Positions 1,843-5,140 of a stretch of 5,265 nt of DNA are shown here, in pieces; within the stretch, counting starts at the first letter, position 1, and each line of letters opens with the position of its first letter. The notes under the pieces are model-generated. The model was not told where the DNA came from. It saw nothing but the letters and a program-made list of their open reading frames with translations, and searched no databases. Position numbers and translations under genes: made by a program. Origin of the DNA: a bacterium (GTDB taxonomy: Bacteria > UBA9089 > CG2-30-40-21 > SBAY01); contig JBFLYA010000260.1 of assembly GCA_040757115.1 (NCBI GenBank), forward strand, positions 1 through 5,265, given 5' to 3'.

Positions 1843-1870
1843 TTGCTTTTTTTACAATGTGTGATATAAT
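1843..1870 (+). promoter_or_regulatory. Predicted dnaA promoter with extended -10
   Basis: TGATATAAT (1862-1870) contains a perfect TATAAT -10 preceded by the TGn extension. A weak -35, TTGCTT (1843-1848), lies 16 bases upstream, as is usual for extended -10 promoters. Transcription from about 1877 would give a dnaA leader of roughly 340 bases containing all ten DnaA-box-like sites. A dyad, TACAAT (1853-1858) and ATTGTA (1875-1880), is centred on the -10. Confidence 0.5.
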
Positions 1871-1901: not shown

Positions 1902-2019
1902 TTATTCACACCTGTGGATAACTATGTGTGTAACTTTTAAAGGATTTGTGTGGATATAAAAAATTAAGTCCTTGCTTTTCAATTAACTAACTCACTTGTG
2001 GACAACCTGTGGATAAAAA
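1902..2019. repeat. 118-bp tandem repeat, copy 1 (five DnaA boxes)
   Basis: This copy matches 2040-2157 at 117 of 118 positions, the only difference being C at 2003 versus T at 2141. Boxes start at offsets 0, 11, 47, 95 and 106. The first box is on the + strand and the rest are on the - strand. The flanking bases (1901 and 2020) differ from those of copy 2, so the boundaries are sharp. Confidence 0.95.
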
Positions 2020-2039
2020 ATGAGGGAGGCTAACGAAAT

Positions 2040-2157
2040 TTATTCACACCTGTGGATAACTATGTGTGTAACTTTTAAAGGATTTGTGTGGATATAAAAA
2101 ATTAAGTCCTTGCTTTTCAATTAACTAACTCACTTGTGGATAACCTGTGGATAAAAA
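2040..2157. repeat. 118-bp tandem repeat, copy 2 (five DnaA boxes)
   Basis: Second copy, 138 bases downstream of copy 1 and separated from it by a unique 20-base spacer (2020-2039). Here the fourth box is the perfect TGTGGATAA, whereas copy 1 has TGTGGACAA. The last two boxes form TGTGGATAACCTGTGGATAA at 2135-2154. The copy ends 62 bases before the dnaA ATG. Confidence 0.95.
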
Positions 2158-2219: not shown

Positions 2220-3575
2220 ATGGAAAGTGAATTATTCTGGAATGATATTGTAACAGCCCTTAAAAAGAACTTAACAAAGGAAAGTTTTGAATTATGGATT
2301 AAACCTGTTTGTGTAAGTTCATTTAGTGATAATCTTTTAGAATTAGAGGTGCCAAATAAATTCTTTAAGGATAAATTAGATGATAATTATAAAAATATGA
2401 TTGAGGTAGTCGCCAGTGAGACCGCTGGTAGGAAAATTGAGGTGAAATTTGTTGTTACTTCAAAATTTAAAGAGACTGAATTAAATAAAATACAACCTGT
2501 TTCAGAATATATTGAGCATTCTATATCTTCTATCCCGGAGCATGATTTTCTAAATCCAAAATATACCTTTGAAAGTTTTGTTGTAGGTGAAAGCAATCGG
2601 TTTGCCCATGCGGCCTGCCAGGCAGTTGCCGACTCACCTTCTAAAGCTTATAACCCTTTATTTATCTATGGTGGTGTCGGATTGGGAAAAACTCATTTAC
2701 TCCATGCAATTGGACATCAAATTAGAAATAATAAACCAAAGAAAAAAATAGTTTATGTTTCATCCGAGCAATTCATGAATGAGTTTATTGATTCGATTAG
2801 ATATGGCTATGATAAAAGTATGAATTTTAAAAATAAATATAGAAATGTTGACCTTTTGTTAGTCGATGATATTCAATTTTTTGAAGGTAAGGAAACAACT
2901 CAAGATGAATTTTTCCATACATTTAATACCCTTTATGAATCCCGCAAACAAATTGTTCTGACCAGTGATAGACCCCCAAGAGAAATACCAACACTTGAAG
3001 ATAGATTAATTTCACGATTTGAACAAGGTTTAATTACTGACATTCAACCACCTGACCTTGAAACTCGAATGGCTATTTTAAAAAAAAGGGCTGAAAATGA
3101 AAAAGTTGATATTCCTGATGATGTTATCTATTTTATCGCAACTAAAATAAAGGCTAATATTAGAAAATTAGAAGGAGCACTTATTAGAATTATTGCCTAT
3201 GCATCTTTCCATAATAAAATAATAGATACAGCATTAGTTAGCAGTGTTTTAGAAGATGTTCTCGTTAGTAGTGAACCTAAGAAAATATCGATGGAGATAA
3301 TTCAAACGACTATCGCCAGGCAATTTAAGATTTCACCCGCTGAATTAAAAGGGAAAAGAAGAGATGCAACCACTGCCTTGCCACGACAAATGGCAATGTA
3401 TCTATGTCGAGAATTAACTCCACATTCTCTACCTGAAATTGGAAGAGAATTTGGAAAAGACCATACTACGGTCATTCATGCTTTTAATAAAATTAAAGAT
3501 CTGATGGATAGTGATAAAAATATAAAGGAAACCATTGACCGACTTACAACAAATATTAAAAGCACAATCTTATAA
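2220..3575 (+). CDS. dnaA: Chromosomal replication initiator protein DnaA
   Basis: DnaA is the ATP-dependent AAA+ initiator that binds DnaA boxes at oriC, melts the adjacent DNA and helps load the replicative helicase. The 451-residue protein has all four domains: an N-terminal interaction domain (about 1-80), a short linker, an AAA+ domain (about 110-325) and a C-terminal DNA-binding domain (about 355-451). Visible motifs are Walker A GGVGLGKT (151-158), Walker B LLLVDD (212-217), sensor I LTSDR (247-251), the arginine finger R266 in SRFEQGL, sensor II R315 in IRKLEGAL, and the DnaA signature EIGREFGKDHTTVIHA (406-421). The signature has one glycine fewer than the FGGRDHTTV form of E. coli and B. 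subtilis. I recall a similar FGRDHTTV form in mycobacteria. The ATG at 2220 is chosen because it has a ribosome binding site and yields the canonical start (ESELFWNDIVTALKKNLT). The upstream GTG extension encodes only repeat-derived residues. DnaA boxes on both sides suggest autoregulation and origin function. Confidence 0.98.
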   Translation: MESELFWNDIVTALKKNLTKESFELWIKPVCVSSFSDNLLELEVPNKFFKDKLDDNYKNMIEVVASETAGRKIEVKFVVTSKFKETELNKIQPVSEYIEHSISSIPEHDFLNPKYTFESFVVGESNRFAHAACQAVADSPSKAYNPLFIYGGVGLGKTHLLHAIGHQIRNNKPKKKIVYVSSEQFMNEFIDSIRYGYDKSMNFKNKYRNVDLLLVDDIQFFEGKETTQDEFFHTFNTLYESRKQIVLTSDRPPREIPTLEDRLISRFEQGLITDIQPPDLETRMAILKKRAENEKVDIPDDVIYFIATKIKANIRKLEGALIRIIAYASFHNKIIDTALVSSVLEDVLVSSEPKKISMEIIQTTIARQFKISPAELKGKRRDATTALPRQMAMYLCRELTPHSLPEIGREFGKDHTTVIHAFNKIKDLMDSDKNIKETIDRLTTNIKSTIL

Positions 3576-3577
3576 AG

Positions 3578-3586
3578 TTATCCACA
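3578..3586 (+). promoter_or_regulatory. Perfect DnaA box after dnaA
   Basis: TTATCCACA matches the consensus at all nine positions and begins 2 bases after the dnaA stop. A degenerate site TTATTAACA (two mismatches) follows at 3590-3598. Its orientation is opposite to most boxes upstream of dnaA. Confidence 0.8.
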
Positions 3587-3642: not shown

Positions 3643-3680
3643 CAATTCACAGTATTATTAATACTACTAATTTTTAAATT
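3643..3680 (+). other. Candidate DNA unwinding element with DnaA-trio-like repeats
   Basis: A weak DnaA box, CAATTCACA (3643-3651, three mismatches to consensus), is followed directly by trinucleotides TTA, TTA, ATA, CTA, CTA (3655-3669) and then a pure A/T stretch to 3680. In B. subtilis the unwinding site, also between dnaA and dnaN, consists of DnaA boxes followed by CTA/TTA/CTT-type trios (the complement of 3'-GAT-5') and an A/T tract. The order and location match. The GC-rich bases normally between box and trios are missing, and in such AT-rich DNA chance resemblance is possible. Confidence 0.45.
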
Positions 3681-3693: not shown

Positions 3694-4791
3694 ATGAAAA
3701 TAAAAGGTAAAAAGGAAGCATTATTGGAGGGTATTCAATCAGCTCAAATAACCTCGCCAAAGACAACTTTACCAATTCTCTCTAATATCCTTATGTCTGC
3801 AGAGGAAGAAAATGAATTAACCGTAATTGCCACAGATTTAGAACTAAGCATAAAGACCAAATTTGAAATAGAGGTATTAGAAAAAGGAAGTATCTGTGTT
3901 CCATTAAAAAAATTAATTGAGATTATCCGTGAGTTAGTAGATAAAGAAGATGTTTTAATTGAGGTAGAAGAAAATAATAGAGTGGTTATTTCATCTAAGG
4001 ATTCCATATTTCATTTATTTGGTTTGCCTAAGGAAGATTTCCCATTATTTCCTGAATATAGTCAAGAAAAATCATTTAATCTATCTTCTACTTTACTTAA
4101 AGAGATGATTAGAAAAACAATCTTTGCTACGGCAATGGATGAGATTCGCTATGTTCTAAATGGGGTATTCTTTATTGTCAAAGAAAATGAATGTCGAATG
4201 GTAGCGACTGATGGACATCGTTTAGCTGTTATTAAAAAAACTCTACCGGGGACAATAGGTGAAGAACAGGAGATAATTGTGCCAACAAAGGCATTAACTG
4301 AAGTAAATAGAATCATTCCTGAAGAACAAAATGTCCAAATATCAATAGATAAGAATAAAATAGTGTTTCAAATAAATAATTTAATTATTGTTTCCAGATT
4401 AATCGAAGGCAAATTCCCTGATTATAAGAAAGTCATCCCTCAAGACCAGGATAAAACTCTAAAAATCAATACCCAACAATTAATTTCTACGAGTCGGAGA
4501 GTATCTTTAATGACAACTGATTTCTTAAAGTTTAATATTTGTAAAAATAAATTAAAATTATTTTCAACTTCTGAGTTAGGCGATGCAAAAGAAGAATTAG
4601 ATGTGAATTTCTCTGGAGGAGACATAGAAATTTGTTTCAATCCTAAATATCTAATGGATATTTTAAAAAATATTGAGGATGAAGAAATAGTAATTCTTCT
4701 TAAAACTCCATCAACCGCAGGGATTGTCCAACCACTGGAAGAAAAAGAAGGCGAGGAATATTTGTGTGTCCTTATGCCAGTCAGAACATAG
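3694..4791 (+). CDS. dnaN: DNA polymerase III subunit beta (sliding clamp) DnaN
   Basis: DnaN forms the ring-shaped homodimer that encircles DNA and holds DNA polymerase III and other repair and replication proteins on the template. At 365 residues it is the usual length for three clamp domains of about 120 residues each. Recognisable family motifs are TLPILSNIL in domain 1 (25-33), VATDGHRLAV in domain 2 (170-179), LIEGKFPDYKKVIP at the domain 2/3 transition (236-249) and the C-terminal YLCVLMPVRT (356-365), whose MPVR tail forms part of the partner-binding pocket. It starts 118 bases after dnaA in the same direction, the classic dnaA-dnaN order. No convincing separate promoter was seen (a weak TTGTAA at 3610-3615 paired with GATATT at 3633-3638 is possible), so co-transcription with dnaA is likely. 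recF, often next in this cluster, is not in the remaining 474 bases. Composition is AT-rich like dnaA. Confidence 0.97.
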   Translation: MKIKGKKEALLEGIQSAQITSPKTTLPILSNILMSAEEENELTVIATDLELSIKTKFEIEVLEKGSICVPLKKLIEIIRELVDKEDVLIEVEENNRVVISSKDSIFHLFGLPKEDFPLFPEYSQEKSFNLSSTLLKEMIRKTIFATAMDEIRYVLNGVFFIVKENECRMVATDGHRLAVIKKTLPGTIGEEQEIIVPTKALTEVNRIIPEEQNVQISIDKNKIVFQINNLIIVSRLIEGKFPDYKKVIPQDQDKTLKINTQQLISTSRRVSLMTTDFLKFNICKNKLKLFSTSELGDAKEELDVNFSGGDIEICFNPKYLMDILKNIEDEEIVILLKTPSTAGIVQPLEEKEGEEYLCVLMPVRT

Positions 4792-4904
4792 TGCTCTGTT
4801 AAACCTTAATTGATAGATAAATTGGGAAGGGAAAGAGATACTTGTCAGAAAAATATCGACCTGTGCGATTAGACTAATTCATCGTAGAGACGCAAAGGAA
4901 AAAT

Positions 4905-5012
4905 AAATGTAAAATGTAAAATAGGAAATGAAAAATGGGAAATTTTAGTAATTCGCAAGACTCATTACCTTTTAGTTATACATTTTCATTTTACATTATC
5001 CATTTTACATTT
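4905..5012. repeat. Imperfect long inverted repeat built of AAATG-type words
   Basis: AAATGTAAAATG (4905-4916) is the exact complement of CATTTTACATTT (5001-5012). The similarity continues inward with gaps: AAATGAAAAATG around 4926-4937 corresponds to CATTTTCATTTTACATT at 4981-4997. The arms are about 35-40 bases with roughly 35 bases between them. The same word CATTTTACATT also recurs directly at 4987-4997 and 5001-5011. It could fold as an AT-rich cruciform or, if transcribed, a long hairpin. No mobile-element ends or transposase are seen. Confidence 0.6.
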
Positions 5013-5140
5013 AACCACACAGGTGGAAAACTCCTAAATATATCCCCTTATTTTCTTTATCTTCATATCTCCTTTTTGGACACAGGTTAATAGGGTTCTG
5101 CAAAATGCCACTTTTTTGTCATCTCAGCCTCAAATTGTCA

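Follow-up and report, generated by a model that had tools for sequence, protein, structure and literature searches.

Why would a chromosomal origin carry its DnaA boxes in modules that are repeated almost letter by letter, and what might follow from such an arrangement? Most bacteria have an irregular cluster of DnaA boxes at the upstream half of the origin. Origins vary widely in the number and order of their boxes. The locus considered here lies in a window (the whole stretch of DNA that was analyzed) that represents an entire contig of 5,265 bp, G000:C260, from a 4.3-Mb assembly in 462 contigs (genome G000). It encodes, all on the + strand, a permease (283-1653; PF00860), DnaA (2220..3575, 451 aa; TIGR00362 with 576 bits) and DnaN (3694..4791, 365 aa; TIGR00663 and three Pfam beta-clamp domains), and the repeated boxes are situated between the permease gene and dnaA. 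The initiator itself is canonical: it scores above the TIGR00362 cut-off and has the N-terminal (PF11638), AAA+ (PF00308) and helix-turn-helix (PF08299) domains. In third-codon-position G+C, the permease gene (0.41) differs from dnaA and dnaN (0.22-0.23). Two further features of the window are an imperfect inverted repeat of the TAAATGTAAAATG / CATTTTACATTTA type 3' of dnaN (4904-5015), and one exact and one variant copy of the 12-mer GTAAGCGTTCAG at about 107-184. This 12-mer occurs 210 times in G000 (108 +, 102 -), 188 times in its sister genome, G001, and in 13 of the 19 genomes of the phylum, while its reversed pattern gives zero matches; at the places listed for the genome G005, copies often face opposite ways at distances of tens to hundreds of bp, and such pairs resemble the ends of a short dispersed element.

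The array consists of two 118-bp units on the + strand, unit 1 at 1902..2019 and unit 2 at 2040..2157, which are separated by 20 bp (2020..2039). As claimed by the first-pass annotation, they match at 117 of 118 positions, with C at 2003 versus T at 2141 as the sole difference. The pair was recovered by repeat finders, which give a period of 138 and lengthen the pair to 1898-2019 / 2036-2157, and by direct comparison; aligned to itself in register, the tandem repeat scores 118, compared to a shuffle maximum of 14. Since the 20-bp spacer repeats together with the unit in the sister genome, the spacer belongs to the period and the true repeating unit is 138 bp (118 + 20). The assignment of five DnaA-box 9-mers to each unit also proved correct, all ten lying within one mismatch of TTATCCACA, and a sixth site per unit, TTACACACA, has two mismatches. 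Unit 1 begins with box 1 on the + strand (TTATTCACA, 1902..1910), followed on the - strand by box 2 (TTATCCACA, perfect, 1913..1921), the weak box-like site (TTACACACA, 1925..1933), box 4 (ATATCCACA, 1949..1957), box 5 (TTGTCCACA, 1997..2005) and box 6 (TTATCCACA, perfect, 2008..2016). Unit 2 repeats this order and orientation with box 1 (TTATTCACA, 2040..2048), box 2 (TTATCCACA, perfect, 2051..2059), the weak site (TTACACACA, 2063..2071), box 4 (ATATCCACA, 2087..2095) and boxes 5 and 6 (both TTATCCACA and perfect, 2135..2143 and 2146..2154). The single C2003/T2141 difference is thus located inside a box, which reads TTGTCCACA in unit 1 and TTATCCACA in unit 2. In dinucleotide-preserving shuffles of one 138-bp period, the box count averages 0.06 and peaks at 2, versus the five that are observed.

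Related arrays are found upstream of dnaA in four other genomes: the sister genome G001; G003, which represents another genus of the same family (f1); and G008 and G013 of the family f3. The sister genome, whose dnaA is 99% identical, shares the flanks and the 138-bp period; it has three units, of which the first two are identical (118/118). In G003 (dnaA 77%), three units with a period of 130 bp are 84-85% identical to each other and 76-82% identical to those of G000 and G001. All eight units of f1 match a 34-bp core, TTATNCACACCTGTGGATAACTNTGTGTGTAACT, which occupies 1902..1935 in unit 1 and 2040..2073 in unit 2 (+ strand). In f3 (dnaA about 48% identical) the core copies are looser, with two copies 179 bp apart in G008 and four in G013. 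A genome of the family f2, G006, which belongs to the same order as f1, has two box pairs 188 bp apart, and the core is absent; G002 is uninformative on the array, as its contig stops 155 bp before dnaA. In G008 (locus L019, about -447 to -135 relative to dnaA), the duplicated 179-bp unit holds an inverted-repeat stretch, AGCCAATAGGCAATAGCC and CCTATTGGCTATTAG, beside the core, which might promote duplication. A separate observation concerns the signature loop of DnaA domain IV, which reads FGKDHTTV in G000, G001 and G008, i.e., one residue fewer in the DnaA-box-binding motif than the FGGRDHTTV or FGGKDHTTV of the others. Among the DnaA proteins compared, the shorter form occurs only in array-bearing genomes; G003 and G013 combine arrays with the usual loop.

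Unit copy number therefore varies among relatives, as the first-pass annotation had anticipated, with two units in G000, three in G001 and three in G003, all of them lower bounds, because every genome with an array is a draft of hundreds of contigs. At the 138-bp period, the longest exact internal repeat is 101 nt in G000 and 227 nt in G001, and further units may be collapsed in both assemblies. The opposite error, a single real unit that was written twice by the assembler, might be suspected in a draft contig of 5.3 kb whose longest exact repeat is only 101 nt. However, the units differ at 2003/2141, the same C/T difference parts the last unit from the earlier ones in G001, and three-unit arrays are present in two other assemblies, with G003 units that have diverged by 15-16%. 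An assembly artefact is hence very improbable.

How uncommon this design is was assessed in a survey of sequences upstream of dnaA: 205 distinct regions, each no longer than about 930 nt and from a set biased toward genomes near G000 or with a DnaA close to that of G000, were scored for unit-scale self-repetition. The five array genomes score 250, 159, 118, 83 and 33, compared to 21 for the sixth-ranked region of the 205; in a first pass over 104 regions, shuffles of the 16 top loci reached maxima of 12 to 25. Only five of the 205 regions surpass chance self-repetition, which bears out the earlier view that it is unusual to have DnaA boxes in a modular array next to dnaA. A search of the phylum's 19 genomes for the inner core TGTGGATAACTNTGTGTGTAA (21 nt, up to two mismatches) gave matches in the five array genomes alone, each with two or more copies and all of these upstream of dnaA, and the reversed-pattern control gives no match in the same 19 genomes. 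Since other families of the phylum are without the array, it is not required for an origin as such.

Within the units, conservation is higher in the boxes than elsewhere. In the first three box-like sites, 26 of 27 positions are invariant across the eight units and two genera, including the entire weak site TTACACACA; the sole exception, the fifth base of TTATNCACA (box 1), can be T, G or A and coincides with the degenerate position 5 of the consensus TTWTNCACA (quoted in PMC7561715). Over the eight units, 43 of 54 box columns are conserved versus 34 of 64 other columns (p = 0.0035). The constant part of the cassette is the first 34 bp, because G003, whose unit halves diverge outside the core, does not retain the fourth and sixth boxes. 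These patterns bear on the suggestion that an ordinary upstream cluster (oriC1) was duplicated by slippage and that copy number has no function. Neutral tandem duplication would agree with the different copy numbers of the sister genomes and with the divergence outside the core, but it has to accommodate arrays in five genomes of two families versus none of about 200 other regions, and a core that is constant in every f1 copy while the remainder changes. On this balance, a purely neutral origin of the array appears improbable.

The near-identity of the two units had initially been attributed to either a recent duplication or ongoing homogenization, and the comparison with relatives bears on this choice. 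At unit position 102, the last units of G000 and G001 have T (in G000 at 2141), and the earlier units have C; this common pattern implies that at least two units predate the split of the two genomes. At unit position 73, G000 has G in both of its units, and G001 has A in all of its three. Positions 73 and 102 show all four combinations within G000/G001 and thereby fail the four-gamete test, which implies either exchange between units or repeated mutation; probably, sequence was exchanged between units. In the unit tree, the G003 units form one clade versus those of G000 and G001 (98/96), while the dnaA tree leaves the order of the families unresolved. A recent duplication is not supported, given that two or more units were present before the two genomes separated and that the design is family-wide, whereas homogenization is favored by the incompatible site patterns and by the clustering of units by genus. 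As judged from these site patterns, near-identity is a matter of homogenization in an older array more than of recent birth.

Several simple sources of the units were considered and rejected. A one-step duplication of 118 bp is at odds with the flanks: by eye, the 20-bp spacer is absent from both outer flanks, and neither end therefore fits one duplication of unit plus flank. A dispersed repeat or mobile element was rejected as well, as the core is confined to dnaA leaders; the 341-bp region matches only its own locus in G000, apart from two matches of 25-32 nt to the right flank. Concerning a viral or phage origin, no phage match was obtained, and the 34-nt core is absent from viral contigs. 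The right flank itself (2167-2198, around AAATCCAAAATCCGCAATCCAAAATTCG) looks like a dispersed short repeat, with short matches at other places in both G000 and G001.

The position of the array relative to a putative dnaA promoter suggests a link to dnaA expression. The predicted promoter, TTGCTT-16-TATAAT with GTGTGATATAAT (1843..1870, + strand), is located upstream of the entire array. The same -35 element, a spacer of always 16 nt and TATAAT with an (A/G)TGATATAAT extension are present in six genomes of the three families f1, f2 and f3 (G000, G001, G003, G006, G008, and G013) and precede the boxes in all six; among the other loci of the 205 regions surveyed, none was seen to have the strict motif. 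The case for the promoter rests on this conservation, because a generic promoter scan did not list 1843-1870 and its count of sites was near that of shuffles (4 vs. 2.5). From the -10 box to dnaA, the leader measures 349 nt in G000, 475 nt in G001, 560 nt in G003, 623 nt in G008 and 863 nt in G013. As the conserved promoter stands before all units, the array is probably transcribed as part of the dnaA leader. Within such a transcript, inverted boxes can pair, and the units might accordingly be imagined as a repeated structured RNA element. Yet no Rfam match was obtained, the folding energy of the leader is unexceptional (z = -1.16; 9 of 100 shuffles fold as well), and the G opposite the variable position of box 1 is invariant, whether that position is T, G or A, which makes an RNA element hardly credible as an explanation.

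Where, then, would the strands open? That the array is the whole origin is not supported; more likely, it is the upstream half of a bipartite origin whose DnaA-trio-like site is in the gap between dnaA and dnaN. Features of a bipartite origin are indeed present, with a box cluster upstream of dnaA and boxes in the gap. The latter contains a perfect DnaA box (3578..3586, + strand) and, about 1.5 kb downstream of the array, the DnaA-trio-like run TATTATTAATACTACTAATTTTT (3653..3675, + strand), with weaker DnaA boxes adjoining it. The run, which is the probable unwinding site (oriC2), recurs at the corresponding position in G001, G002 and G003, and G004 and G006 have equivalent runs. A rule modeled on the published pattern of the basal unwinding system (BUS, PMC8287927), i.e., a DnaA box with at most two mismatches 0-16 nt from at least three trios, identifies trio-rich runs on the + strand of the gap in G001, G002, G003, G004, G006, G008, G011, G013 and G015. 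In G000, the boxes that adjoin the run have three mismatches each and are outside the two-mismatch rule, though the run is present. An unwinding site within the array was rejected: the scan of the G000 upstream region found a three-trio run at about 1700, outside the array and adjoining a two-mismatch 9-mer, and no comparable run beside the array. Strand opening probably occurs at 3653-3675, as far as can be judged from conserved sequence. The cumulative AT-skew curve reaches its lowest point at 1979, inside the array, and GC skew at third codon positions increases from gene to gene, being -0.175 in the permease gene, 0 in dnaA and 0.153 in dnaN; the total GC-skew minimum of the window is at position 156, away from the array, with all skews covering this contig alone.

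An alternative is that the array is mainly an autoregulatory element of dnaA, with repeated operators that would block transcription from within the leader, or a sink that titrates DnaA, and that the dnaA-dnaN gap suffices as the origin proper. In its favor, no unit falls outside the interval from the conserved promoter to dnaA, 1.5 kb separate the array from the trio-like run, and extra copies would bring many high-affinity boxes (as predicted) and no added unwinding sequence. On the other hand, the upstream cluster takes part in initiation in the bipartite origins that have been studied (PMC7561715), the change in AT skew centers near the array, and the two roles are not mutually exclusive. 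An exclusively regulatory or titrating array is therefore rather unlikely, although less so than the other alternatives.

The explanation that fits best, and that is considered fairly probable, is that the array represents oriC1 of a Bacillus-type bipartite origin, composed of repeated DnaA-loading cassettes that are also placed for possible repression of dnaA. At the head of each cassette stands an inverted box pair, TTATNCACA-CC-TGTGGATAA, and a third site in line comes after it. Once DnaA occupies the cassettes, looping over dnaA could raise the local concentration of DnaA at the weak boxes beside the trio-like run, where the strands would open. Bound DnaA might also hinder dnaA transcription, because every cassette is located between the predicted promoter and the start codon. 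Unequal exchange between units could alter the number of cassettes and, at the same time, keep the units alike. A more far-reaching suggestion, to be taken as tentative, is that cassette number serves as an evolvable dial: unequal exchange would add or remove whole cassettes, both initiation timing and dnaA repression would shift with their number, and several lineages of this phylum would have settled on different values. Irrespective of this suggestion, the cassette series, with two, three or four units and the same core, provides a natural dosage series for the upstream half, in which box dosage can be tested against initiation timing, dnaA repression, or both. Moreover, the array is an example of within-array homogenization at an essential chromosomal site.

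A literature search, mostly confined to titles and abstracts, returned whole-genome reports, plasmids and general oriC papers and no described precedent for unit-scale repetition of oriC1, which does not prove that there is none. The closest known system is that of B. subtilis, in which the dnaA promoter and the upstream box clusters (incA/incB) are 1.3 kb from the unwinding region (PMC4207641) and incC, which has DnaA-trios and is located between dnaA and dnaN, is supported by a distal DnaA box, apparently via looping (PMC6669920). G000 resembles it in having a box cluster and promoter upstream, a trio-type sequence in the gap, and a similar distance between them. Unlike in B. subtilis, however, the upstream cluster consists of two to three near-identical units with one period, all boxes are downstream of the predicted promoter, and the organism is known from a draft genome of a small, little-studied phylum. 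Clostridia share the bipartite oriC1/oriC2 layout and the variable number of upstream boxes (9-19), and in vitro melting at oriC2 of Clostridioides difficile depends on oriC1 (PMC7561715); their variation is described as box number in clusters, not as cassette copies. The origins of epsilonproteobacteria (Helicobacter, Arcobacter, Wolinella, Sulfurimonas) are similar in that oriC1 precedes and oriC2 follows dnaA, with unwinding in oriC2; their box pattern is not conserved between species, and unit-scale repetition is not mentioned in the part of that report drawn on here (PMC5043019). Weak tandem boxes with a trio-like run next to them, as in the dnaA-dnaN gap here, recall the BUS arrangement of DnaA boxes, spacer and DnaA-trios (PMC8287927; PMC6669920). 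In contrast to the latter, G000 misses the published box threshold. Repeated initiator-binding units are otherwise familiar from the iteron arrays of plasmids, in which sites of about 20 bp bind the plasmid Rep protein. Here, however, the units measure 118-138 bp, contain several DnaA boxes and lie beside a chromosomal dnaA. The architecture is real and uncommon, and among these systems it is best filed as a variant of the bipartite DnaA-box origin.
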